Origin: a virus
Length of the DNA: 27,013 nucleotides
Strand: one strand, 5' to 3'
IMG/VR virus record: IMGVR_UViG_3300023178_000219
Location: 1-27,013 of that record
In this document: positions 10,375 through 25,800 of the stretch, piece after piece
Numbering within the stretch: position 1 is the stretch's first letter
Layout: the number at the start of each line of letters is the position of its first letter
Program-made: the position numbers and the translations under genes
Notes under the pieces: model-generated
The model's input: the letters and a program-made list of their open reading frames with translations, nothing else
What the model was told of the DNA's origin: nothing
Databases searched by the model: none

Positions 10375-12171
10375 ATGACAGAAGCGGTTGATAAAGAGAT
10401 AAGAGATATTGATTATATCTCCAAAGATTTTAATGGATATAAAACAGATCTTATTGATTTCTTAAAAAAATATTTTCCAGACACATGGCAAGATTTTAGT
10501 CAAATTTCTGGTGGTATGGCTTTATTAGAGATGGTTGCTTATGTTGGTGACAGTTTATCTTTTTTGATGGATAGACAAATTAATGAAGGGTTTATAGATA
10601 GAGCTATTGAGCCAGCTAATGTATATAGTTTAGCACAAAATATGGGATATAAACCAAAATTTTCAACTCCAGCTACAACCACACTATCTTTATCAGCAAC
10701 ATTTTTCGATAGCACATCATCAGATTCTATGTTTAAAGTTTTGAAAGAGTCAATATTTTCTTCTGATAATTTTGTTGATTATGAATTGGTAGAAGATGTT
10801 GATTTTTCAAATACAACAAATAGATCATCTATAAGAGATACTGTTGAAAACAAAACAACATACGTTAAAAATGCTGTTGTTATCGCTGGAAAAACTAAAA
10901 GTTTTGAATATTCTGTTTCAGCACCACAACCTTTTTTAAAAATAACATTACCAGATGTAGATATATCAGAAATATATTCTGTTATTGATAACAATGGTAA
11001 CGAATGGATTGAAGTTGATAGTTTAGCACAACAATCTGTTTTTTATGGTGATATCAATATTGATCCATTAACAAATGGAGATGCTGGTTATATTTTAAAA
11101 CAAAAAAAAGTTTATAGAAAATATATAACAGAAAAAAATGCTAATGGTAGTGTTAGTCTTGTTTTTGGTAATGGAGTGTCAACGCAAGAAGATTCGGAAA
11201 TAATACCAAATCCAGAAAATTTTGTTTTACCAATAAATTTAAGAGGGTCCGTTTCAGCCTTTACACCTAAAGTCATAAATTCATCTGATTTTTTAAATAC
11301 CACAACACTTGGAGAAGCTCCCAAAAACACAACTTTAACAATAAAATATAGAGTTGGTGGTGGATCAAACACAAATTCACCAGTAGGTTCTATAAAAAGA
11401 TGTGTTAGTAAAAATATAGAGTTTTTAGACACAAGTTTTGAATCTGCAAATCCAAGTATTTCTAATTTTGTTGTTGATTCATTAACTGTTAATAATAAAG
11501 TTGATGCGTCTGGTGGTTCCGATGCGGAAAGTTTAGCTGACATAAAACATAATGCAATTAATAGTATTAACTCGCAATACAGAGCTGTTACTTTGAATGA
11601 TTATCAAGCAAGAGCTTTATCTTTACCTTCTGTATATGGTAATATATTTAGAGCTAAGGCGCGAAAAAACCCATTAGATAGTAATGGTGTAGAAATATAT
11701 GTTACAGGTATTGATGAAAATAATAATATTAAAAACTTAAACAACATTGTTAAAAATAATTTAGAATCATATCTACAAGAATTTAAATCATTTTCAGATA
11801 ATATATTGATAAGTAATGGGATTATAGCTAATATACAAGTTGATTTTAGTATAACTAAAAATTCAACTTATTCTAACAATGAAGTTTTACTTGAAGCATT
11901 TAATATATTAAAGGGTATATTTTTCTACAGAAATATTAAATTCGGAGATAGTTTTGTTATAAGTGATATAATGTCTACATTACAAGCTTCACCAAAAATA
12001 CTTTCAGTTGGGAGTTTGAATATAACAAATATAACTGGTAGTATTGGGGGTAGTGTGTATTCAAACAGTGTTGTTGATATGCGTCAAAACAATGGCGTAA
12101 TAACACTACCGCAAAATGTGGTTTGGGAATTAAAATATCCAAATAAAGATATAATAGGAACGGTTGTTTAA
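10375..12171 (+). CDS. gp6: Baseplate wedge protein gp6 (BaseplateJ family)
   Basis: A 598-residue protein starting at ATG 10375 (weak site GAGA, 14 bases after gp25). The N-terminus is the classic gp6 region: RDIDYISKDFNGYKTDLIDF, QISGGMALLEMVAYVGDSLS, then LMDRQINEGFIDRAIEP and VYSLAQNMGYKP (about residues 8-93). The middle is strand-rich. The BaseplateJ-type part is at about 380-550, with DIKHNAINSINSQYRAVTLN, DYQARALSLPSVYGNIFRAK and FFYRNIKFGDSFVISDIM. T4 gp6 has 660 residues, so this is close to full length. It forms the inner wedge ring that drives baseplate opening and binds gp25, gp53 and gp7. Its stop codon overlaps the start of the HNH gene (TAATG). Confidence 0.95.
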   Translation: MTEAVDKEIRDIDYISKDFNGYKTDLIDFLKKYFPDTWQDFSQISGGMALLEMVAYVGDSLSFLMDRQINEGFIDRAIEPANVYSLAQNMGYKPKFSTPATTTLSLSATFFDSTSSDSMFKVLKESIFSSDNFVDYELVEDVDFSNTTNRSSIRDTVENKTTYVKNAVVIAGKTKSFEYSVSAPQPFLKITLPDVDISEIYSVIDNNGNEWIEVDSLAQQSVFYGDINIDPLTNGDAGYILKQKKVYRKYITEKNANGSVSLVFGNGVSTQEDSEIIPNPENFVLPINLRGSVSAFTPKVINSSDFLNTTTLGEAPKNTTLTIKYRVGGGSNTNSPVGSIKRCVSKNIEFLDTSFESANPSISNFVVDSLTVNNKVDASGGSDAESLADIKHNAINSINSQYRAVTLNDYQARALSLPSVYGNIFRAKARKNPLDSNGVEIYVTGIDENNNIKNLNNIVKNNLESYLQEFKSFSDNILISNGIIANIQVDFSITKNSTYSNNEVLLEAFNILKGIFFYRNIKFGDSFVISDIMSTLQASPKILSVGSLNITNITGSIGGSVYSNSVVDMRQNNGVITLPQNVVWELKYPNKDIIGTVV

Positions 12172-12437
12172 TGAATAGAAAAAAAAGAATACCAAGAAAT
12201 CAAAAGTTTTCTAAAGCTAGTAAAAGATGTGAAATATGTGGTGAGTCAAAAGCTGTGGATAATCATCATATAACACATAAGTCAGAGGGTGGATCTGATT
12301 ATGGATTAAATAGAGTGTGGTTATGCCCTAATCATCACAGAATGGCCCATAATGGATATTTATTAATAAAAGGTTGGGATGACTACGGATATAAATTAAA
12401 ACTTAATTATGAAATTAGAGAAAATAAATGTCAATAG
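12171..12437 (+). CDS. Small HNH endonuclease (free-standing, homing-type)
   Basis: An 88-residue protein with a complete HNH core: zinc ligands C20-E-I-C23, the catalytic pair H32-H33, N47 in LNRVWLC, C52-x2-H55, H56 and H60 in CPNHHRMAH. The N-terminal 19 residues are basic, which fits DNA binding. HNH enzymes nick or cut DNA with one metal ion; free-standing ones in phages usually spread themselves into intron-less or gene-less alleles. ATG 12171 shares its A with the stop of gp6, and the end overlaps the next gene by 10 bases, so it is tightly built into the operon; no clear ribosome binding site precedes it, suggesting coupled translation. There is no extra DNA-recognition domain, which would make it a low-specificity nickase or an enzyme helped by partners. 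Confidence 0.88.
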   Translation: MNRKKRIPRNQKFSKASKRCEICGESKAVDNHHITHKSEGGSDYGLNRVWLCPNHHRMAHNGYLLIKGWDDYGYKLKLNYEIRENKCQ

Positions 12438-13901: not shown

Positions 13902-16900
13902 ATGGCTGACGGCTATACATACGAAAGTTTATTATCTTCTTTAGAGAGTGCTGGAAGTATTTCTGGTGATTTACTAGAAAATTCATTTACAGCAGATACA
14001 AACAGAGCTATTCCTCTTATAGATTATGGTAGATTCTCAAAACATACTTTCTTTGGTGATATAAGAAGAAAGACAGAAAGAAACTTTAATAAAATAATAA
14101 CTGAATACCCTATTGGTTTGAGTGGGGCTTCAGTGGCCGCATTAACAGAATCAGATATATTGGCTGTTGATAAGTTTTACAAAGAAGCTGATGGTTACAC
14201 TAGATGGTTATTGAATGAGTTGGGTAAAGATGTGGCCTTTACTGGAACAGAAAAATCAATAACTGCAAATGCTGTTAATAATAATCAAGAAAATGTTACA
14301 TTAATTCATTTACATAGAGATTCTGATAATTCTGTAACTGGTGATCAGTTAGATAATATAAATGCAATATATGAAAGAATAGAATTATACGAAGACTTTA
14401 ATAAAGAAATAGAATATTTAGATGCTGGAACTTTATCATATTTTGGAGTCACTGGTGGTGAAGGTAATTATGCTAATTATTCTACTCGTATAACCGAAGA
14501 AGTTCCAGCCTCTGCAGAGGTTGATGTTATTCAAAACTTCAAGTTGGAAAATCTTATACCAAGATATTTGTTTTTAGGTGATGATACAGAATTCTTAAAA
14601 AGTTTTCTTACAGCATTGTCTGAATCTTTTGATGAATATAAATTATATATAGAAAACATACCAAACTTAAAAAAGATTTCATACGATAGCGTTGATAGAG
14701 TTCCAGATAGATTCATACCTGTTTTAGCTAAAGATTATGGTGTTAATTTATATGAAACATCTGCAGATATTGATATAAAACAAGAACTATTTAATTCTTC
14801 ATCTGCTGGATATACTAGTAAAGAGGTAACAAGTAAGGTATGGAATAGAATATTAAACAATATCCCACACTTATTAAAATCAAAAGGTGCAAGAGAAAGT
14901 TTAGAAGCTATTTGTAGAATATATGGAATTAAAAACAATTTCTTAAAAATTAATGAACACTCAATTTTTAGAACAAAAGTTAAAAAAACAGAACAAGAGT
15001 TAGTAGATTTTATAGCTTTATATTCTGATGGAACGAATTATGTTCAAACATCAGTTGGAGCTACAGAAACTAGTTCTTTGGCTTTTGATTTTGCGGCTGG
15101 GCAAGACTTTACCATACAAACTGTTGTATCTGCAACAGCGGCACAATCTCACACATTGGTTGAACACCCACTATATAATATAACATTAAGTGATGTAGGT
15201 GTTTTAACATTTAATTCAGTAACAACACCAACTGTAACAGTATCCACCCCAGAGGGGTCTATTTCATCCCATATACAAGCCTTAGATAATTTTACTAATA
15301 TAACTGTATCAAGAAGTGGTGATACCTTAAACGCTTATTTAACCACCCTCTCAGCTAGTCCTACTGGTGGTAATGATATTGTAGAGGTTGTTAGTGGTTC
15401 TTACAGTGATGTATCGGTTGGAACTGAAAGTTATGACTCAACAGGTGGAACTGTTGGTGGCTCTACAAAATTTCCTTCTCCAAATAACTTTATTGGTTAT
15501 ATGCATGAAGTAAGAACATGGGATATAGCATTAGAAGAAGAAGACATAAAAGAACATACGAGAAACTTTCAATCAATATCAATTGAAAATACAAAAATAA
15601 ACAATCAAAGTGCCACATATAATAATTTGAAGTCTCACTTCAAACTAAGAGAAGATATAATTCTTGGTGGTGATTATAATTTTATTGTAAACTCTGCAAA
15701 AAGTAATTATCATGCTGAACCTGTGGGGTTTGGAACAACAGAGAAAAAATATAGACACTTTTCCGATAGAAAAAGAATTGTTAGTAGTTATCCATTAGGT
15801 TTCTCTATTAACAACGATAAAATAAGAACATCAGAAGAAAATATTGAAGAAGAAGATGTTGGTTATATTAGCTTCTCTATGAGTCCAACAAACGCAGTAA
15901 ATAGAGAAATATACAATAGTATACAAGATTTTAATGTGTTTGATCTTTTAGGAGATCCTTCTGTATTAACAAAGAACTCATATTTTGGAACAGACATAAA
16001 TAATAAATGGAATGAAATTTCAGAACAATGGAATTTATCTAAAAACGAAACATTTGATCCAGATCCATTAAACAATGCATTACTTAAAAGTGGTGGATCT
16101 GTTTTGACGGTAACTGGTGTTAGTGGGTCTAGCGTTGGATTAATGAACAATAACGCATTTGTTAAATCAATGAATAATTTCAATGATACATTTGGAAGTA
16201 TATTTCCATTCTCAGAACAATTTATACCAGCAAAAACAAATGTTATTTCAAAAGGTTTATTTATTGAATCACCTTTATTAGAGAGACATAAAACAAAAAG
16301 AGTGTTTGGTAGAAGATGGAATTCTTTGGCTGAGGTCTTGGCTGAGAACGAACAATATCAATTAACAGCAGATGGAAACATTATATCATATGATAATGAT
16401 AAGCAAACTAACAATGCTGTTCCTACGGTGTTATCGTTAAATGAGCTTGAATTTGTTTTAAATAATCACTATTTAGCTGGTGATTTGGCTACAACGGGTT
16501 CGGGTTCGGCTAATGAAGTAAATTTATCAGCATCAGCTGCAACTACTGCAGATTTTCAAGGTTATCAATATTATGATAACAACATACAAGAAACTATAGA
16601 TTTAGAGTTTAGTGCTATAACTCAAGTTCCAAATGTTAGTGTTAATAGCACTGTAAACGAACCTAATTTTTCTCAAACTAGATATGGTAGATTCTTACCC
16701 GTAAGAATAACTCCTGCAGCTGTTGACCAAACAGAGGTTGAAATAACTTTGGATACTATGTTAATATCACCTACTGCAAACAACACAGCTAGCAATGGGT
16801 TCATAAGTGGTAGAGTTAAAATGTTATCTGGTGGTGTTGAATTCAAAACGGATTTACCAGCCTTAAGGTTTGATTTTCCCACATCAGCTGATGGAACAAA

Positions 16901-17240
16901 CTTGTTTATTGCAGAGGTTGGTGATATAGATGCTGGTGAGGGTAGAATAGTAAAAGACAAAGACAACTCAATAGTTGTCTCCTTAGAGAGTGCAACAATA
17001 CAATTAAACTTAACACTAGCTAGTGTTGTAAGATCACTCAGTGCAGTTGCTGGAGATGTTACACTACAAATGGTAGAAGATTCGGCGTCTGGTAGTATTG
17101 GTATTGTTCCTATTAATGTTACAAACCTATTTAATGATGTAACATATATATTTAGAGTGGGTATAAACGCTGTTGATACTAAGGATACTGATTTGATTAG
17201 ACAAATAACACAACAAGGTGTAGAAAAAATTACATCATAA
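13902..17240 (+). CDS. Baseplate wedge protein, P2 gpI / T4 gp7-like, with inserted LamG-like domain
   Basis: A 1112-residue protein starting at ATG 13902 with AGGGG at 13890-13894. Residues about 205-365 look like the tail protein I/gp7 region: LENLIPRYLFLGDDTEFLKS, a helix with LSESFDEYKLYIENIPNL, DRFIPVLAKDYGVNL, then NRILNNIPHLLKSKGARESL and EAICRIYGI. The last segment ('l..sKGtr..l..l...yGi') is the hallmark of gpI-like proteins. Residues about 366-556 form a LamG/concanavalin-like sandwich ending in FIGYMHEVRTWDIALEEEDI. A middle part with NYHAEPVGFG follows, then a beta-rich C-terminal half. The first 190 residues resemble neighbouring marine-phage wedge proteins (YGRFSKHTFFGDIRRKTERN). 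It would link the wedge to fibres. The lectin-like insert suggests that this wedge protein itself may touch cell-surface glycans. Confidence 0.72.
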   Translation: MADGYTYESLLSSLESAGSISGDLLENSFTADTNRAIPLIDYGRFSKHTFFGDIRRKTERNFNKIITEYPIGLSGASVAALTESDILAVDKFYKEADGYTRWLLNELGKDVAFTGTEKSITANAVNNNQENVTLIHLHRDSDNSVTGDQLDNINAIYERIELYEDFNKEIEYLDAGTLSYFGVTGGEGNYANYSTRITEEVPASAEVDVIQNFKLENLIPRYLFLGDDTEFLKSFLTALSESFDEYKLYIENIPNLKKISYDSVDRVPDRFIPVLAKDYGVNLYETSADIDIKQELFNSSSAGYTSKEVTSKVWNRILNNIPHLLKSKGARESLEAICRIYGIKNNFLKINEHSIFRTKVKKTEQELVDFIALYSDGTNYVQTSVGATETSSLAFDFAAGQDFTIQTVVSATAAQSHTLVEHPLYNITLSDVGVLTFNSVTTPTVTVSTPEGSISSHIQALDNFTNITVSRSGDTLNAYLTTLSASPTGGNDIVEVVSGSYSDVSVGTESYDSTGGTVGGSTKFPSPNNFIGYMHEVRTWDIALEEEDIKEHTRNFQSISIENTKINNQSATYNNLKSHFKLREDIILGGDYNFIVNSAKSNYHAEPVGFGTTEKKYRHFSDRKRIVSSYPLGFSINNDKIRTSEENIEEEDVGYISFSMSPTNAVNREIYNSIQDFNVFDLLGDPSVLTKNSYFGTDINNKWNEISEQWNLSKNETFDPDPLNNALLKSGGSVLTVTGVSGSSVGLMNNNAFVKSMNNFNDTFGSIFPFSEQFIPAKTNVISKGLFIESPLLERHKTKRVFGRRWNSLAEVLAENEQYQLTADGNIISYDNDKQTNNAVPTVLSLNELEFVLNNHYLAGDLATTGSGSANEVNLSASAATTADFQGYQYYDNNIQETIDLEFSAITQVPNVSVNSTVNEPNFSQTRYGRFLPVRITPAAVDQTEVEITLDTMLISPTANNTASNGFISGRVKMLSGGVEFKTDLPALRFDFPTSADGTNLFIAEVGDIDAGEGRIVKDKDNSIVVSLESATIQLNLTLASVVRSLSAVAGDVTLQMVEDSASGSIGIVPINVTNLFNDVTYIFRVGINAVDTKDTDLIRQITQQGVEKITS

Positions 17241-17258: not shown

Positions 17259-17900
17259 ATGTTTATATATGGAACAAGTTTTAAACAATTTGGAATATTC
17301 ACATTAGAAAAAATTATAGAAAAAATTAATTCTTTAAATAAAAATTCTATTACTGAGTTAGGTGCACACTCTGGTTTTTTAACATTGGAATTATCAAAAC
17401 ATTTTCATGTTAGTAATTTGAAACCAGCTGTTTTAAAGTCTTACAATACTTTTGCTGATATAAGAAAGATTTTAAATAGAAATAAACTTTCTAATATTAG
17501 TGTTTCATTAATTGAAAGAAGTGATATAGAAGATTACATTAAACAAATAAAAACAGATATAGTATATGTTGATAATAGTTTTTTAAATCATAAAACAACT
17601 ATAGATCTTTTAGTAGAGTTTAATATTATATGTGATGTTATATATGTTGATGGTGATTCTATTATTCATATCAATACAGAATCATTGATATCTCAAAAAA
17701 GAAAAGAAAGTATGGTTATACAACCAGAACCACAACCACAACCAGAGCCAGCGATAGAGGAACCAGTTATTAATACAGAAGAAGCAGTTCCAGAGTATGC
17801 GGCTGTAGAAGAAGTAAAGGAAGAAGTGGTTGTAGAGGAAGAAAAAGTAAAACCAAAAAGAAGAAGAAGAAGCAGAAGTAAGAAAACAAATAGTGAATAA
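17259..17900 (+). CDS. Methyltransferase-like (Rossmann-type) protein with acidic/Pro-rich linker and Arg/Lys tail
   Basis: A 213-residue protein with AGGGG before ATG 17259. Residues 31-43, ITELGAHSGFLTL, match motif I of class I SAM-dependent methyltransferases (E-x-G-A-x-x-G-x-x-T), and strand VYVDNSF at 102-108 and VIYVDGD further on recall the 'd.v.iDg' strands of FkbM-type enzymes. The domain is short (about 150 residues) and some expected motifs are weak, so catalytic activity is uncertain; it may be a decayed or purely structural fold. From residue 155 the protein changes character: Gln/Pro/Glu repeats, then a Glu/Val-rich stretch (to about 196), then a strongly basic end, KPKRRRRSRSKK (198-209). 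It lies between a baseplate wedge gene and fibre genes, so a virion or assembly role is plausible. A glycan- or protein-modifying enzyme is the alternative. Confidence 0.55.
   Translation: MFIYGTSFKQFGIFTLEKIIEKINSLNKNSITELGAHSGFLTLELSKHFHVSNLKPAVLKSYNTFADIRKILNRNKLSNISVSLIERSDIEDYIKQIKTDIVYVDNSFLNHKTTIDLLVEFNIICDVIYVDGDSIIHINTESLISQKRKESMVIQPEPQPQPEPAIEEPVINTEEAVPEYAAVEEVKEEVVVEEEKVKPKRRRRSRSKKTNSE
17721..17750 (+). repeat. Short codon-level repeat (Gln-Pro / Glu-Pro)
   Basis: Ten codons alternating CAA/GAA/GAG with CCA, encoding QPEPQPQPEP at residues 155-164. They mark the switch from the folded domain to the linker of the methyltransferase-like protein. A second slippage-prone run, four AGA codons in a row, is at 17859-17870 in the basic tail. 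Both could gain or lose codons by replication slippage. Confidence 0.75.
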
Positions 17901-17980: not shown

Positions 17981-18550
17981 TTGGCATTTCTTGATTCATC
18001 AACAGCAGTTATAGACGCAATTCTTACTAAGAGGGGCCGAGAATTGTTAGCTAGAAATGATGGCTCCTTTCAAATAACAAAGTTTGCCTTTGGTGATGAT
18101 GAGATTAATTACCAATTATTCAACATTGCAAACACAGTTAATCCAGAGGCAGATATTATTAATCTACCTGTTTTGGAACCCACATCAAATGATGAGGTAG
18201 CATTGTTAAATAGATTAGTAACTCTACCAAGAGGAACACTAAAAGTAGCTACATTGAGTTTAGATCCTAATCAAGCAACAGTTGATTTTGGAAGTGATAT
18301 AACTGTTTCAGTTGTTACTGAAAATGGTAGTGATCCACAGGGATATACAGCAACGATTAGAGATTCTACTATTGGTATTTTGACAGCTGCGAGAGCTATT
18401 CCAGCTGCTGGTGGTTTAGCTACTTTCACTATTAGAACTGGCGAAAATGCTAGCGGTGGAACAGGAACTACAATTATGGATATTATTGGTATAAACACTG
18501 GAGCTAGAAAAGAGTTTAGCTTTACAGTTAATGAAGCAACAACAACTTAA
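17981..18550 (+). CDS. Virion structural protein with conserved MAFLD-type N-terminus and Ig-like domain
   Basis: A 189-residue protein starting with TTG 17981. The N-terminus (MAFLDSSTAVIDAILTKRGR, then ELLARNDGSFQITKFAFGDD and EINYQLFN, residues 1-48) belongs to a structural-protein type seen repeatedly in marine myophage tail clusters, where 'aiLT..GR..la..dg.f.itkfa.gddEInY' is the constant part. Residues about 85-185 are a beta-sandwich of Ig-like (Big-type) look: GTLKVATLSLDPNQATVDFG, SDITVSVVTENGSD and a final strand, RKEFSFTV. It is first in the distal module after the 80-base gap. It probably sits at the baseplate edge or on a fibre; the Ig-like domain may bind weakly to cell-surface sugars. 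The function is inferred from family and place. Confidence 0.68.
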   Translation: MAFLDSSTAVIDAILTKRGRELLARNDGSFQITKFAFGDDEINYQLFNIANTVNPEADIINLPVLEPTSNDEVALLNRLVTLPRGTLKVATLSLDPNQATVDFGSDITVSVVTENGSDPQGYTATIRDSTIGILTAARAIPAAGGLATFTIRTGENASGGTGTTIMDIIGINTGARKEFSFTVNEATTT

Positions 18551-18563
18551 TTAGAGAAAAGGT

Positions 18564-19430
18564 ATGGCGTTAACAAATTTTAATGAAGATGATATATCAG
18601 TTAGTGATGTTGAATATACTACTAACTTTGTTATAGATTCGGCTACAGCAGCTTCGGCTAGAAATATATACTCTTTTGTTGCAGAAGCTAGTTCTACTGG
18701 TTTTTTAGTAAATGCTCAAGGTTCAACAACAACTACACCTCTTAGTTCTGCCTTTAGACACTTTACTAATTACTATTTTTCATCAGCATCAGATGCATCT
18801 ATACCACTTGCACAAGACAACACAACAACAACTGGTATATTTAGAGCTATTCAATTAGGGAGAACAACAGTTGATGATGGTATATTAAGTGGTAGTGTTA
18901 CAGCTATATTTTCTTTTGGGGCTGTTGGTAACTTACAGTTTGTTGATATACCAGATACAACAATTGATAATAGTATTGGTAGAAAGGGAACTCTAGTTCA
19001 GAAAAATGATGAAACAAATGTTGTTGGAACAGTATTTTACGACACAGGAACTTTGGTTTTCCACGGTGGTAATACATCAACAAACTTTTTAACATCACCT
19101 GCATCTGGTTTTATATTTGGTGAAGGTTCAACAGCTGAAACTATAGCTATTAATGAAGTTAATTTTAAATCTGTTAATAGTATTAAAAGAACTTCTTTTT
19201 TTTGTAGAGCTAAAAACAGAGAATTTAATTACACAAATAATATAACAGCGTTATCTGATAGAACTACTGGATCTATTACTGGCTCATTAACAGCAGATCC
19301 TACAACATTTATAACAACAATTGGTCTTTATAATGATGATGGTGAAATGCTCGCAATAGCCAAGGTTTCTCCAGCAGTTAAAAAGACTTTTGATACAGAA
19401 AAAGTTTTTTCTGTTAGATTACAATACTAA
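18564..19430 (+). CDS. Tail-associated structural protein, paralogue A with shared C-terminal module
   Basis: A 288-residue protein; ATG 18564 with AAAAGG upstream, 13 bases after the previous gene. The N-terminal part (MALTNFNEDDISVSDVEYTT onward) is Ser/Thr/Ala-rich and not recognised. The last roughly 135 residues form a module shared with the next two genes: VVGTVFYDTGTLVFHGG, RTSFFCRAKNREFNYTNN, FITTIGLYNDDGEMLAIAKV and a final beta strand ending in Tyr. The stretch before it (FRAIQLGRTTVDDGILSGSV) also aligns with the third copy. It is probably a baseplate- or fibre-bound protein in which the C-terminal module is the anchor or trimerisation part and the N-terminal part is variable. No enzyme motif was seen. 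Confidence 0.6.
   Translation: MALTNFNEDDISVSDVEYTTNFVIDSATAASARNIYSFVAEASSTGFLVNAQGSTTTTPLSSAFRHFTNYYFSSASDASIPLAQDNTTTTGIFRAIQLGRTTVDDGILSGSVTAIFSFGAVGNLQFVDIPDTTIDNSIGRKGTLVQKNDETNVVGTVFYDTGTLVFHGGNTSTNFLTSPASGFIFGEGSTAETIAINEVNFKSVNSIKRTSFFCRAKNREFNYTNNITALSDRTTGSITGSLTADPTTFITTIGLYNDDGEMLAIAKVSPAVKKTFDTEKVFSVRLQY
19020..19427 (+). repeat. Shared C-terminal module, copy A
   Basis: Codes for about 136 residues from VVGTVFYD to the end of the 288-residue protein. Landmarks: GTVFYD, EFNYT, FITTIGLYNDDGEMLAIAKV, VKK. Copies B (21372-21791) and C (22272-22712) follow in the next two genes. The copies are alike in protein and only partly in DNA, so the duplications are old. Confidence 0.7.
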
Positions 19431-19436
19431 AACATT

Positions 19437-21794
19437 ATGTCATTTAAAGCTTTTGAAGACGAAACTATCCAAAGTTATGTTAATGAGAAGATAGAGACAG
19501 TTTCATTATCAGAGACTAGTCCTTCGGCTTCTTATGCTCATTTTTTCACAGGTATAAGAAGTTTGGGTAAGATAGGTTCTTTAAATGGCGACGATAATCC
19601 AGATTTTGGTTTTAATAAAGAAGATGAAATAAAATATAAATTTGACTTTACTGAAATACCTATACTTGGCCAATCAATAACTGCCGATATGGTTAATGGT
19701 GTTTATATGAGTGAAGGTGATATGGATTATAGCACCGCTGCTGGATATAACACAACAACATCACATCAAAGAATATTTGATCATATAGCATACTATTTGT
19801 ATAGAGCAGATCTAGATGATAATTATGATCCATCAATAACAAACATACAAAGTGGCTCAACAAGTGTGGATATATCTGTTTTTAAATTAATTAACTTGAG
19901 AAAAGATATAGGTTTTAGTGGTATAAAACCATCATCATTTAGAATGGAGTTAAACTTAGGAACACAAAGTATTACTGGCCATATTGATGGTTCTTCTGCA
20001 GAGCCTTTATATTATGATACTCACGCTACCGGATTTACTGGGGCTTTGGATTTGAAAAACCCATATGGTGGTGAAGTTGGGTTAAGTGATAAAAGTTTCT
20101 TTGGTGTTTCTCTTAATGATACACCTTATATGGCCGCTGAAGGTATTGATAACATTGTTGATGGTATAACAATAGAGGCAATAATAAGACCTCACCAAAA
20201 AGATTCTGTTTTATTTTTTAGAAGAATAGCTAATTCTGCAGACGATAAAACAAGAAATAAATTTATGAAGTTAGAGTTAACTAAAGGCCCTAATGGTATA
20301 AACGAAGCTTTTAGGTTTTATATAAGAAACACATCTACATATCCTAATAACTCAGACACATATGTGGATAAAACAGAATCTAATTTTACAGAAAACTTTT
20401 CTGACGCTAATGTTCAAGCTTCTGGATTGTTTGTTCCTAACGATGTTGGTATAAATCTTTTTGATGGTAATTTTCACCATATAATAGTTACATGGAGTCC
20501 ATATGAATTAGTATCAAATAATGTGGGGGATGCTGAGTTAGGATCTGGGGTTGTGTTGGGTTATGTTGATGGATACAAACTTCTTAATAAAGAACAGGTT
20601 TTTCCAAGACTTAAGGGTTCTGATAGTTCAAACGGCCCAACACCACAACCAAATATGCTTGAACAAAGAATACCAATTAGGCAAGAAAGATTAAGATCTA
20701 CTGATTCTCTTGATGGGCCAAGTGGTAACAATATATATATTGGTGTTTCAAACTTTAGTAGAACAGATGGTGAGTTTGATGGAGATAGAGGAGTTTTAGC
20801 TCCTAGTAATGATCCAAAAATATCTGGGCCTTATGATGGGCAAATACAAGAATTAAGAGTTTGGAATATAAGACTAAAAGATGGAACAACTAAATATAAT
20901 GATAATTTAAACACATTATTAAATACTACAGTTGATGTTGTGGCAAATCCAGAAAAAAGTATTATAGGAACTTTTAATAACTTTTATGATTCTGGTTTAA
21001 CTGGAACATCAACAAGTGCTGGTAATATAGTGGGTTGGTGGAGATTCAACGCTATAGGGTCTCTAACAGCTGCAGATCATGCAGGAGGTTTAACACCCGG
21101 CCTTATTGCGAATGCTCCTGCATTAGCTGCTGACCCAACTGGCCAATTATCTGGAAGTAGTGGTGTGTTGGTTGGTAACTCTACTATGAGATTATATAAT
21201 TCTAAAAACATATTATTAGGTTCAAGTGGAAATGTTTTTAGTGAAGAGTCTGTTTCTTCACTACAAAGAACACTGACATATTATGATCAACCAGCAGCTG
21301 GATCAAAGCCCGTAAATAATAATTTAAATCAGGGTAGAATATTAAGAAGAACTATTTCTGATGAAGCAAAAAGAGTTGGTGTTATATTTTATGACACAAA
21401 TCAAATAGTTTTAGACAATGATGATGAGTTTGTAAGTATGAATTTCACTTGGCCAACCAGTGGTGTGTCTGGTGATTTTGGTTTTTCTGTAACTAGTGAT
21501 AATATAGATAATAACTCTATCAACGTTGAAAGATTAAAATATGACGCAGTTATAAGAAGTGGTAGAACTTTGTTTTCGGCAGTAGCGGAGGGTTCTGAAT
21601 TTAATTACACTGAAAACCCAACGGGGAAAAACCCAGATACAAACGAAAATATATTTGATGATCCAACAGCATTTATTACTTCTGTTGGTTTATACAACAA
21701 TGAAGGTGAGTTATTAGCTATAGGTAAGTTATCAAATACTGTTAAGAAAAATAATAAAATTCAAATAGAAACTCAAGTTAAGCTAGATTATTAG
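19437..21794 (+). CDS. Large LamG-like tail protein, paralogue B with shared C-terminal module
   Basis: A 785-residue protein; ATG 19437 is 6 bases after the previous stop and has no recognisable ribosome binding site, so translation is probably coupled. The N-terminal 220 residues are unrecognised (RSLGKIGSLNGDDNPDFGFN). Residues about 225-480 form a LamG/concanavalin-like lectin: ITIEAIIRPHQKDSVLFFRR, FDGNFHHIIVTWSPYEL, GYVDGYKLLNK, NIYIGVSNFS and DGQIQELRVWNIRLKDG. NIVGWWRFN follows at about 532, a stretch commonly found after phage LamG domains. The C-terminal 140 residues (from RVGVIFYDTN at about 646) are the shared module: RSGRTLFSAVAEGSEFNYTE, FITSVGLYNNEGELLAIGKL. It likely binds a surface glycan through the LamG domain and is anchored to the tail by the C-terminal module. 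Confidence 0.7.
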   Translation: MSFKAFEDETIQSYVNEKIETVSLSETSPSASYAHFFTGIRSLGKIGSLNGDDNPDFGFNKEDEIKYKFDFTEIPILGQSITADMVNGVYMSEGDMDYSTAAGYNTTTSHQRIFDHIAYYLYRADLDDNYDPSITNIQSGSTSVDISVFKLINLRKDIGFSGIKPSSFRMELNLGTQSITGHIDGSSAEPLYYDTHATGFTGALDLKNPYGGEVGLSDKSFFGVSLNDTPYMAAEGIDNIVDGITIEAIIRPHQKDSVLFFRRIANSADDKTRNKFMKLELTKGPNGINEAFRFYIRNTSTYPNNSDTYVDKTESNFTENFSDANVQASGLFVPNDVGINLFDGNFHHIIVTWSPYELVSNNVGDAELGSGVVLGYVDGYKLLNKEQVFPRLKGSDSSNGPTPQPNMLEQRIPIRQERLRSTDSLDGPSGNNIYIGVSNFSRTDGEFDGDRGVLAPSNDPKISGPYDGQIQELRVWNIRLKDGTTKYNDNLNTLLNTTVDVVANPEKSIIGTFNNFYDSGLTGTSTSAGNIVGWWRFNAIGSLTAADHAGGLTPGLIANAPALAADPTGQLSGSSGVLVGNSTMRLYNSKNILLGSSGNVFSEESVSSLQRTLTYYDQPAAGSKPVNNNLNQGRILRRTISDEAKRVGVIFYDTNQIVLDNDDEFVSMNFTWPTSGVSGDFGFSVTSDNIDNNSINVERLKYDAVIRSGRTLFSAVAEGSEFNYTENPTGKNPDTNENIFDDPTAFITSVGLYNNEGELLAIGKLSNTVKKNNKIQIETQVKLDY
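21372..21791 (+). repeat. Shared C-terminal module, copy B
   Basis: About 140 residues closing the 785-residue LamG protein. Landmarks: RVGVIFYDTNQIVLDN, SEFNYTENP, FITSVGLYNNEGELLAIGKL, VKK and final LDY. It is closest in its last 40 residues to copies A and C. Confidence 0.72.
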
Positions 21795-21803
21795 AGAGTG
21801 TAA

Positions 21804-22715
21804 ATGCCAGATCCATTACTACCAATAAGAACTAATAAAGATATTGAAAGTGGATATGTTAGAATAAATCCATCAGACTATTTTTTTGTAACATTTGAAA
21901 GCTCAAAACAAATAGCTATTGATGATATAGAGTGTCCTTTGACTAAGGGTATAAATGATCATCAAATAATTAGTTCACCTAATGATTCTGTTTGTGCGAT
22001 GACTGCTAGTTGGGATGGTAGTAACTCATCATATTGGTATACGGTAAGAAAAATATTATCAGAGAGAACAAGTGATTATTCTTTAACAGCGACTCAACCA
22101 GCTGATGCACAATTAGGTATAATAAGTATAAGGAAGAACTTTTATGATATGGCTTTAGCGACTGGTAGTGTTACTGCCACTGTCACGGGCACTAATTTTG
22201 TTGGTAATAGCATAGCTGATACTTATTATGATGATGGTAATGGTAACTTTTTAAAACTATCAAACGGATTATCAATAGGTAAGGTGTTATACGATGATGG
22301 TATGATTGTTATTGATAATGCAGAATATAGAGAGGTTGCAACCTCAACAACATCATTAGTTTTTAATACAAGAGTTCAACATACAGCTTTAAATGTTTAT
22401 TGTAAGTGTGAATCAAATGAACTTAATTATACACTAAATCACACAGCGGCTGCTACAGCTAGTTTATGTGCAAACGGCGAAAGTATAGAGGCTGGACATG
22501 ATAATTTATATACTAAAACTTCTATAACAGGAAGCACTGATAGGTTTAAATATTGGGAAGATTTAGTTTCGTCTGGATATAATTTTTCACCTATGATAAC
22601 ATCTGTTGGTTTATATAATGAAAATAATGAGTTATTGGCTGTTGCTAAATTAACAAAACCAATTAAAAAACCCACAGACTTACCATTAACTGTTAAGATT
22701 GCAATTGATATATAA
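21804..22715 (+). CDS. Tail-associated structural protein, paralogue C with shared C-terminal module
   Basis: A 303-residue protein; ATG 21804 with AGAGAG upstream, 9 bases after the previous gene. The N-terminal 100 residues are unrecognised (PLLPIRTNKDIESGYVRINP, SDYFFVTFESSKQI). From about residue 157 comes the shared module: SIGKVLYDDGMIVIDN, ALNVYCKCESNELNYTLN, MITSVGLYNENNELLAVAKL and a final beta strand. An insert of about 30 residues, longer than in copies A and B, separates the NYT and SVGLYN parts. Upstream, IISIRKNFYDMALATGSVTA aligns with paralogue A. It has several Cys residues (Cys in CKC and CANGE), unusual for this window; disulphides or metal binding are possible but not shown. 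It is likely a structural partner of the LamG proteins on either side. Confidence 0.6.
   Translation: MPDPLLPIRTNKDIESGYVRINPSDYFFVTFESSKQIAIDDIECPLTKGINDHQIISSPNDSVCAMTASWDGSNSSYWYTVRKILSERTSDYSLTATQPADAQLGIISIRKNFYDMALATGSVTATVTGTNFVGNSIADTYYDDGNGNFLKLSNGLSIGKVLYDDGMIVIDNAEYREVATSTTSLVFNTRVQHTALNVYCKCESNELNYTLNHTAAATASLCANGESIEAGHDNLYTKTSITGSTDRFKYWEDLVSSGYNFSPMITSVGLYNENNELLAVAKLTKPIKKPTDLPLTVKIAIDI
22272..22712 (+). repeat. Shared C-terminal module, copy C
   Basis: About 147 residues closing the 303-residue protein. Landmarks: SIGKVLYDDGMIVIDN, NELNYTLN, MITSVGLYNENNELLAVAKL, IKK. It is the longest copy because of a larger loop in the middle. Confidence 0.68.
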
Positions 22716-22726
22716 AGGAAAATAAA

Positions 22727-24451
22727 ATGGCATTTAGGTTTATAAATCCAGTAGCTACTGGGCAATTTAGATATATTTTATCAAGAGCTGTTGAAGATGT
22801 TACTATAATAGATCTTACAGATACACCAAGCAATGGAGTAACTGGTTTTCATTTGGAAGTTGTAACAGGATCTACTAAATCAATAGAACTTGACGGCATT
22901 GGTGAGTATATGAAACTCCCAACAGCAGAAGGAAATAACACTGAGTTTGGTTTGGATAATATAGGTGTTAATGGCCCCATAGCTAACAATTTAATTTTTG
23001 AATCTTGGGTTAAATTATCAGACATAGAATATACTGCAGGATACGCAAACCAATATTGGGAAGCTACAATACAAAGAGATACTACAAGTGGCCCATATGG
23101 TCAAGACGAAAATGGTGATGATATATTTGGAACAACAACGGAAGGTTTTGATGGAATATATCATAGTAGATTAATATATATAGACCCAGAGGGAGATTCA
23201 ACATCTGCTCACTATGTTGATTTTCAATTCACTAGTGGAACAAATATAGCATATAGTTTAACATCAAACTCTAGTATACCTGTTAATACTTGGACTCATT
23301 TGATGACAAAGTATAATTGGGAGGGTGATACATATGGAAGCGGTGAAGGTAATAGCACTATGTCCGTATATATAAATGGAGTGTTAGATAGAGTAGAGAC
23401 TTTAGACAACCTTCATGCCGCAGGGGCTTTAAGCAACCCTGCATACCCTTCTACGGGTTCCCCATTAGATGCTAAGGGATTAATACTATTTAATGGTAAA
23501 GTCGATGAGATGAGATTGTGGTGTCTCAGTGCAAGTGATCCTGTTATGGCTGAACTTGCTTCTGTAACTAGTATAGGGTTATATCCAGAAAAACTAAGTG
23601 TTCAAGCTCAAAATGATTTATCTCCAAGTGCTAACACTTTAGTAGGTTGGTGGAGATTTGAAGATGTTACAGCTGTAAATCTTTATGCTTCTATAGTTGA
23701 TAGTATAGAAGATAGCACAGAGTATAATCACAACGCGACTCCTGTAGGTTTTGAAGGCCCAACAAGTTTTTCCGATGATCAACACTCTATTTATGGAAGT
23801 AACGCAATGGATAACTTCCCAGATTTAAAAATAGGAACAACAGATAATGGCGGTATGTTAACCATTGATAATAGAAACTCAAGTGTTCTATTAGAAGAAG
23901 GTTGGGAGAATTTAGTATTAAAGTCACAAAATAGTTGGACTCCTATCTTAGAACAAAACGGTGATCCAACAGCAATAGTTAATGTAGATGAAAGACAGAT
24001 ATACACTGGAACCTCTGGCGTTAGAGTTAATACAGGATATGAGGGTGGAGGGGCAATACACACCATAGATTATTCACCAGAAAATTTTATTGATAAAAAC
24101 AAATATATTTGTGGTTTAAGAATGATTGCCGCTAGTGGATCAGTTAGTGCAAGAGTAACATTTACTCTCGGCCCAGAAAGCAATAGTGCATCTGTAACAG
24201 CTGTTATGACTAACTTAGAGTGGAGACCATTTTTTGTTAGGAATACTGCTATTAGTGATCCGGGGCACCCCTCATCTATTACCGGATCTGTTAAGGTAGA
24301 ACAGCTTCATAACCCCGTAGAAGGAGCAGATGAAGGATCTTTGTTTAATGTTGATTCATTTATGATTAAACAAGGTGATTACCCATCAGCTTTTGTGGGA
24401 CAAGAAGAAGTCAGAAAAACAGGTCAAATTTATTGGAATATAGGTGATTAA
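22727..24451 (+). CDS. Tail fibre/decoration protein with LamG-like lectin and CBM-like domains
   Basis: A 574-residue protein; ATG 22727 with AAGGAAA upstream. Residues about 45-270 are a LamG-like fold: KSIELDGIGEYMKLP, NLIFESWVKLSDIEYT, NTWTHLMTKYNWEGD, MSVYINGVLDRVETL and LFNGKVDEMRLWCLSASD. LVGWWRFEDV follows (about 306-315), with NHNATPVGFEGPTSF. The C-terminal part (about 392-555) looks like a jelly-roll carbohydrate-binding module of CBM4/9 type: GWENLVLKSQNSWTPILEQN, TGTSGVRVNTGYEGGG, KYICGLRMIAASGSVSARVT and VDSFMIKQGDYPSAF. Two sugar-binding folds in one chain make receptor or capsule/LPS recognition the most likely role; no hydrolase residues were recognised. The shared C-terminal module of the three previous genes is absent. 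Confidence 0.72.
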   Translation: MAFRFINPVATGQFRYILSRAVEDVTIIDLTDTPSNGVTGFHLEVVTGSTKSIELDGIGEYMKLPTAEGNNTEFGLDNIGVNGPIANNLIFESWVKLSDIEYTAGYANQYWEATIQRDTTSGPYGQDENGDDIFGTTTEGFDGIYHSRLIYIDPEGDSTSAHYVDFQFTSGTNIAYSLTSNSSIPVNTWTHLMTKYNWEGDTYGSGEGNSTMSVYINGVLDRVETLDNLHAAGALSNPAYPSTGSPLDAKGLILFNGKVDEMRLWCLSASDPVMAELASVTSIGLYPEKLSVQAQNDLSPSANTLVGWWRFEDVTAVNLYASIVDSIEDSTEYNHNATPVGFEGPTSFSDDQHSIYGSNAMDNFPDLKIGTTDNGGMLTIDNRNSSVLLEEGWENLVLKSQNSWTPILEQNGDPTAIVNVDERQIYTGTSGVRVNTGYEGGGAIHTIDYSPENFIDKNKYICGLRMIAASGSVSARVTFTLGPESNSASVTAVMTNLEWRPFFVRNTAISDPGHPSSITGSVKVEQLHNPVEGADEGSLFNVDSFMIKQGDYPSAFVGQEEVRKTGQIYWNIGD

Positions 24452-24453
24452 AT

Positions 24454-25800
24454 ATGAATGGTAAAAATTTTACATTAAGAACTGGTGTTAAATTTTCTGG
24501 TAACTCTGGAGATTTTGACAAACAGCCATTTATAAATTTGGTAGAAGAAGACTCAATTACTAGTGGTAAGTTTTTATCACTTTATAGAATAAGAAGATCA
24601 AAAGAAGAAAGTTCAGATATAGATTATGAATATCAGAACCCAGAAAAAGATGGTGTTATTGGATTAAGTTATGGTGATGGATCTAGTGTTTTTTCTTCAA
24701 GTGGAACATATATAACAAAAGCTATTAGTTTAAACGAATACAATGAAAATTTAGTTGGTAATACTACAACTGCAGATGCTCAAGAATATTTTGTTAATGT
24801 TACTGTTGATGATAATAGTAAATTAACACTTATGATTGACGATAATGGAACATTTCACGGTGACATAGTTGTTGAAAACTTAACGTTAAATAGTTATAAT
24901 TATATAGGTTCAACTTACAGACCACAGCCAGAGGGATTGTTAGATGCTAACTTAGATCAAACAATACTACCTAATGGCAGCTCGGCAGACAGCACACTAG
25001 TATTGCAATACCAATATAATGCAATGGAACAAACAGATGTTTTCTTAACTAGTGGATTAACTGGAGTATATGATTGGTCTGGTAACTCTAATACTGGTTC
25101 TATATTTGGAACAGCTATCGGAGATATGGCAAACTTTGGAACAGATAACTCTGTATCTGCAGGAGTTACTGGTTGGACAGCTGGTATTGTTGAGGGCGGA
25201 TTTAGATTGGATGGATCATCATATATAGAAAGCGAAACATCAACATTATTTACTGCAGCTGATCCACTGGATAATGGATATACTTTATTAACATCAGCTA
25301 AGTTTTTTACATCTGCAGATACTGACATATTAACCTTAACTGATGGTGTTGAAACATATGGTTCTTTAAAAATAAGAAATGGTTCTTTTGTTTTTGATGT
25401 AGCTACAGATTCTATAACTGCAGGATCTATAACAGCTGTTGATGAGATTGCAGCAACTGGATCTGTTGAACTGGGTAAGTGGTATAATATAGCAGCTACA
25501 TTAAAAGAAACTAATGGTATAGATAGAGGATCAAAGTTATATATTAACGGAGAGCCATCTATATTAACAAGAACTGTTAGCGATACATTATCAGCATCTA
25601 TGTTTACTACTCCAACAGTAGTAGCTGCTGATACTAAGTTAATTATAGGAACAGATATCGCTAAAACTAGTAACTTCATGAATGGAGTTATTAGTTTAAC
25701 TAGAGTATTTAATAGACCACTTAATGATGCGCAAATATTTGAAAACTTCATAACTAGTATACCCGGTCAAGTTAATATATCAGAAATTAATATTAGTTAG
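24454..25800 (+). CDS. Tail fibre/decoration protein with C-terminal LamG-like domain
   Basis: A 448-residue protein; ATG 24454 sits 2 bases after the previous stop, with AGGTGA at 24442-24447 inside the end of that gene. The N-terminal 165 residues (LRTGVKFSGNSGDFDKQPFI, GLSYGDGSSVFSSS) are beta-rich and unrecognised. A bridging segment with VYDWSGNSNTGSIFG (about 206-220) leads to a LamG-like domain at about 246-430: GGFRLDGSSYIESE, YTLLTSAKFFTSADTDILTL, GKWYNIAATLKETN, SKLYINGEPSILTR and MNGVISLTRVFNRPLNDAQI. It closes the lectin-rich block and is probably a surface-binding tail protein working with its neighbours. Compared with the other LamG proteins the domain order is reversed (unknown part first, lectin last). 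Confidence 0.68.
   Translation: MNGKNFTLRTGVKFSGNSGDFDKQPFINLVEEDSITSGKFLSLYRIRRSKEESSDIDYEYQNPEKDGVIGLSYGDGSSVFSSSGTYITKAISLNEYNENLVGNTTTADAQEYFVNVTVDDNSKLTLMIDDNGTFHGDIVVENLTLNSYNYIGSTYRPQPEGLLDANLDQTILPNGSSADSTLVLQYQYNAMEQTDVFLTSGLTGVYDWSGNSNTGSIFGTAIGDMANFGTDNSVSAGVTGWTAGIVEGGFRLDGSSYIESETSTLFTAADPLDNGYTLLTSAKFFTSADTDILTLTDGVETYGSLKIRNGSFVFDVATDSITAGSITAVDEIAATGSVELGKWYNIAATLKETNGIDRGSKLYINGEPSILTRTVSDTLSASMFTTPTVVAADTKLIIGTDIAKTSNFMNGVISLTRVFNRPLNDAQIFENFITSIPGQVNISEINIS

Follow-up and report, generated by a model that had tools for sequence, protein, structure and literature searches.

Three tandem paralogues of a putative baseplate-periphery family in a viral contig and their remote profile similarity to the docking domain of P2 gpH

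Gene content of the locus

The window, i.e., the whole 27,013-nucleotide stretch analysed (positions 1 to 27,013 of the IMG/VR virus record IMGVR_UViG_3300023178_000219), contains three consecutive genes, A, B and C, located directly behind wedge genes and ahead of fibre-like genes. The features of this region are:

10375..12171, + strand: gp6/Baseplate_J wedge protein (PF04865, E=1.5e-4, above cut-off; phrog_219, E=1.6e-27)
13902..17240, + strand: large 1112-aa protein ahead of U, weakly gpI/gp7-like (Tail_P2_I, E=0.05; phrog_48, E=0.024; both below threshold)
17981..18550, + strand: protein U, 189 aa, encoded by a conserved gene just ahead of A; similar to the first half of the gpH docking domain at residues 12-43
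18564..19430, + strand: protein A, 288 aa, extra paralogue
19437..21794, + strand: protein B, 785 aa, the A/C frame with a large insertion
21804..22715, + strand: protein C, 303 aa, type 2 member and last of the array

The large 1112-aa protein was also considered as a P2 gpI: a KGT motif is common to both, but the comparison reached only E=0.59 and the assignment was rejected. Two other genes are interspersed in this region. An HNH endonuclease-like gene (12171-12437) lies between the gp6-like gene and 12428, and a 213-aa gene (17259-17900), methyltransferase-like by eye and matching no family above threshold, separates the large wedge-like protein from U.

Distribution and organization of the family

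A, B and C end with the same C-terminal pattern, as originally noticed, and sequence comparison confirms that this pattern is real. Profiles built from relatives, with the window lineage left out, recover all three C-termini (A, 7e-23; B, 2e-15; C, 2e-26); hence, the pattern is not due to chance. A tblastn search with A matches B at 39% (E=5.6e-20) and C at 29% over A residues 75-279 (E=4e-6), which bears out the expected alignment of A and C upstream of the module.

Relatives of these proteins are numerous in IMG/VR: at least 585 were confirmed by pattern scans, and the scan with the type 2 query (see below) confirmed 380. In the phage collection INPHARED, tblastn identified relatives in four different phages. 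One is Flavobacterium phage immuto, represented by four near-identical records that count as one phage; the others are Microcystis phage Mel-JY01, Rhodothermus phage RM378 and an uncultured phage of 484 kb. Only five matches were obtained in contigs from 84,980 species of bacteria and archaea, all in records titled metagenome-assembled or uncultured, so the family is essentially viral. A Gp23-type (T4-like) capsid gene is present in six of the eight records checked; none was found in a 109 kb contig whose A, B and C are 100 percent identical to those of the window. The initial impression that the module belongs to no named family agrees with the databases, as Pfam has no entry for it and gives nothing significant, and the PHROG hits are scattered, marginal and inconsistent. 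A curated name is lacking because cultured representatives are few (RM378, immuto and Mel-JY01, in addition to the one uncultured 484 kb genome).

The members are of two types: type 1, with a median length of 341 aa and typically with KLDF or KLDY at the end, and type 2, with a median of 325 aa. Most are plain 335-aa proteins that carry no extra domain. Of the 161 distinct arrays, 147 consist of exactly type 1 followed by type 2 and five are the triplet of the window lineage, figures that are conditional on family presence, as the loci were found by family queries. The A-B-C triplet also occurs in loci L006, L176, L177 and L178, and B always measures 770-793 aa. Protein U adjoins type 1 in 180 of 183 loci (loci with room upstream only, counted without de-duplication), and the array of the window adjoins U in the baseplate operon like the RM378/immuto-type family. 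A few loci deviate in detail: the A orthologue of L176 (7554-8474) extends 18 residues beyond the usual RLQY end and is followed by a gap of ~490 nt before B, while L102 and L130 have unusual array orders (21 and 22), L102 being without an adjacent U.

Whole-length relationship of A, B and C

According to the original prediction, the common C-terminal module was carried on unrelated N-terminal parts. The family profiles contradict this. A and C match the RM378/immuto-type paralogue family over their full length, and B does so in pieces: type 2 profile positions 10-284 align with A 3-286 in one piece (iE 1.7e-28), positions 10-286 align with C 18-303, also in one piece (iE 4.5e-40), and B is matched in two collinear pieces with a gap in between:

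19638..19970, + strand: N-terminal frame segment of B, residues 68-178 (type 2 profile 28-148, iE 0.014)
19971..21329, + strand: insertion in B of about 450 residues, the gap between both profile pieces; LamG-like by motifs only
21330..21788, + strand: C-terminal module of B, residues 632-784 (type 2 profile 154-285, iE 4.8e-18)

By hhalign, C matches the type 2 family with E=1e-34. The N-terminal parts were also compared by themselves. That of C matches the type 2 N-part profile with E=1.6e-8 and that of B with E=2.3e-5 over 26 columns; the N-part profiles of type 1 and type 2 match each other with E=2.1e-6 over 36 columns. The N-part of A alone gave no significant match by hhalign, so the N-terminal case for A comes from the full-length alignment and from its HMMER match to the type 2 N-part (E=0.0046 at Z=40000).

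The AlphaFold monomer models of A (pLDDT 79.8) and C (pLDDT 71.7) have a common order of predicted elements: a long strand, a helix, strands, a long strand and the final hairpin. No significant match to the PDB was identified by Foldseek for either model, nor by sequence. Against BFVD, Foldseek gave long, near full-length matches of A to uncultured phage proteins (TMq 0.56-0.64), one of them annotated as a ConA-like lectin. The profile alignments show that A and C are whole-length homologues and that B is their frame with a large insertion.

In the module tree, type 1, A and B are separated from type 2 and C with a support of 100/97. On this evidence, the three proteins appear to fall on both sides of an old type 1/type 2 duplication. 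Outside the module, the type of A and B is ambiguous by typing HMMs built without the window members, so it is the module tree that assigns them to type 1; an earlier assignment to type 1 by HMMs containing these members was discarded. Protein A is mixed, its C-terminal module grouping with type 1 and its N-terminus being closer to type 2. Taken as a whole, A, B and C are paralogues of what is probably a phage-specific baseplate-periphery family, normally present as an ordered pair (type 1, type 2) behind U in T4-like RM378 ('Far-T4') phages.

Added domains and split genes

One of the three proteins, B, had been credited with a LamG lectin domain. LamG-like motifs are visible in B by eye, and a comparison with the LamG profile (E=0.13) retains collinear motifs only; Pfam detects no Laminin_G above cut-off, either in B or in two B orthologues, and the assignment was therefore not kept. 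The real LamG hits of the region are found in the two genes directly after C (22727-24451 and 24454-25800), both with a significant Pfam Laminin_G_3 (LamG_3) match.

In the long family members, the extra parts are loop insertions or terminal extensions. The type 2 protein of Mel-JY01 has a Pfam-positive LamG at residues 266-437, two of its type 1 proteins have 390-620 extra N-terminal residues, and C-terminal extensions are present in L019 and L021. SprB repeats are among the added parts, above the cut-off in L074 and below it in L082. Extra domains come in by insertion or by extension at a terminus, and a swapping of heads by exchange of N-termini is not supported.

These LamG or SprB-like domains, together with the position ahead of fibre-like genes, would suit proteins that are receptor-binding spikes or short fibres, with a conserved end serving only as a folding or trimerisation cap. 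Such a role is unlikely, however: most members are plain 335-aa proteins, the pair is conserved with a strictness unlike that of fast-evolving receptor binders, and the final hairpin matches a domain of the baseplate side (see below).

In six loci (L044, L045, L072, L074, L082 and L086), type 2 is encoded by two genes. A seventh locus, L198, is broken in the same way, and its C-part is extended at the C-terminus. The end of the N-part is at profile position 180-202, right behind the VGNIIY..GIIIIT strand, and this part carries a long C-terminal tail in L044, L072, L074 and L082. The C-part begins at profile position 183-192 and is a stand-alone protein of about 100 aa, slightly shorter than the module as first delimited. 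Up to three other genes lie between the two parts. Introns were discarded as the cause of the break, as no Rfam match was found, and the broken type 1 of L092 was left out of the count because it resembles a frameshift. Related proteins of 310-320 aa lie between the parts in L045 (3624-4553), L044 (12958-13887) and L086 (9326-10285); they are glycosyltransferase-like by eye, and those of L045 and L086 have no Pfam hit.

A stand-alone gene for the module in some phages, foreign domains in the long variants and a C-terminal module much better conserved than the rest of these proteins are what would be seen if this module were a mobile domain for docking or trimerisation that recombination had joined to unrelated receptor-binding heads. 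This original interpretation is nevertheless largely refuted and now improbable: the family profile covers the whole of A and C, the module tree follows the two old paralogues, and the order of the pair, like that of the triplet in the window lineage, is fixed.

Similarity to the docking domain of P2 gpH

In the literature, PF12571 (DUF3751) is the domain by which P2-like fibres contact the baseplate (PMC6363177), and pyocin fibres are attached via their N-terminus (PMC6116203). A profile of 14 P2-gpH-type N-terminal domains (the gpH profile) was compared with the family by hhalign. The final hairpins of type 2 (E=4.7e-7) and type 1 (E=7.6e-6) match its second half, as do those of the window-lineage profiles of A (9.6e-6), B (3.7e-5) and C (2.8e-5), always at the same position, in pairwise comparisons that cover 23-38 columns per half. 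The first half of the gpH profile matches the U family with E=2.5e-6 and the U of the window alone with E=3.7e-4. In the window, the hairpins are located as follows:

19308..19391, + strand: docking hairpin of A (FITTIGLYNDDGEMLAIAKVSPAVKKTF); gpH profile 86-113 aligned with A 249-276, E=1.1e-4
21672..21752, + strand: docking hairpin of B; gpH profile 86-112 aligned with B 746-772, E=2.8e-4
22596..22676, + strand: docking hairpin of C; gpH profile 87-112 aligned with C 265-291, E=2e-3 for C alone (2.8e-5 with the lineage profile)

None of the controls reached such values: E was 0.05-0.34 for crossed gpH halves, at least 0.09 for reversed profiles, at least 0.02 for ten T4 proteins and at least 0.011 for 250 random ORFs from these loci. 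Similarity to the halves of the gpH N-terminal domain (E 4.7e-7 to 3.7e-5) is present at the profile level. In PF12571 proper, the whole domain stands at the N-terminus of a fibre protein; here, the halves are on separate proteins and the hairpin is C-terminal. The PF12571 model itself matches neither A, B, C nor U in a Pfam search, and PF12571 is not among the families listed, loose thresholds included, for 107 type-1-like members (25 of 42 families) or 88 type 2 members. As no PDB fold match was obtained and a sequence search of the PDB found no solved PF12571 domain structure, the similarity to gpH is known from sequence profiles and not from the fold.

Since the matched stretches are short, a convergence of beta hairpins is conceivable. 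The paralogy would then hold, and the proteins would be peripheral wedge parts, T4 gp8-gp11-like in position and unrelated to fibre docking domains; the gene position and the missing fold match fit this as well. It appears rather unlikely, as adjacent genes match the two gpH halves in the correct order, the controls are clean, and T4 gp8-gp11 show nothing by profile.

Of the docking domain originally proposed, the docking role is thus supported for the C-terminal hairpin by remote homology to gpH and by gene position; the whole-length paralogy, the fixed pair and the fixed triplet speak against a free swapping of heads. Protein U and the two paralogues may assemble into an adaptor at the outer wedge of the baseplate, where pieces of different chains would combine into one gpH-like docking unit. 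Optional domains of carbohydrate- or adhesin-like type would sit on surface loops and chain ends, and the products of the downstream fibre and lectin genes might attach at those loops and ends or nearby. Tentatively, and as a possibility short of an even chance, the docking domain, a single chain in P2-like phages, could be divided among U, type 1 and type 2 in RM378-type T4-like phages and reassemble in trans. The break in type 2 would be a further stage of this splitting, which lets large adhesin domains or cargo genes sit in the break.

With names for the pair and for its partner U, and with the tie to P2 fibre docking, annotators gain a handle on the tails of RM378-type phages, and the family shows where host-recognition domains get inserted. 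If true, the division of the docking domain among chains would link the host-recognition hardware of T4-like and P2-like phages.

Comparison with known systems

The direct homologues are found in RM378 (p128), immuto (QQO92082, QQO92083) and Mel-JY01 (WWT39513-39517), with the same frame and position, and are all annotated as hypothetical. RM378 differs in that it has type 1 but no type 2, whose place is taken by another U-like protein (L014 12380-13087, E=3e-4), the second of this phage, directly after type 1. Mel-JY01, on the other hand, has four type 1 proteins, and its type 2 contains the Pfam-positive LamG insertion.

T4 gp8, gp9, gp10 and gp11 occupy the same place in the gene order, after gp6/gp7. 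However, they have no sequence-profile similarity to the family (hhalign E at least 0.02), and no PDB fold match was given by Foldseek. As relatives, T4 gp53, 5-12 and wac were ruled out by profile comparison.

The likeness to P2 gpH (residues 1-140, PF12571) is threefold: the first-half motif ILT..G..LA...it..algDd is also present in U, the second-half hairpin vGLyd..g.LiAv.k...K is also present in types 1 and 2, and in the gene order both lie behind the wedge genes. In contrast to P2 gpH, the halves are here on separate chains, the Pfam model is blind to them, and the hairpin is C-terminal instead of preceding a fibre shaft.
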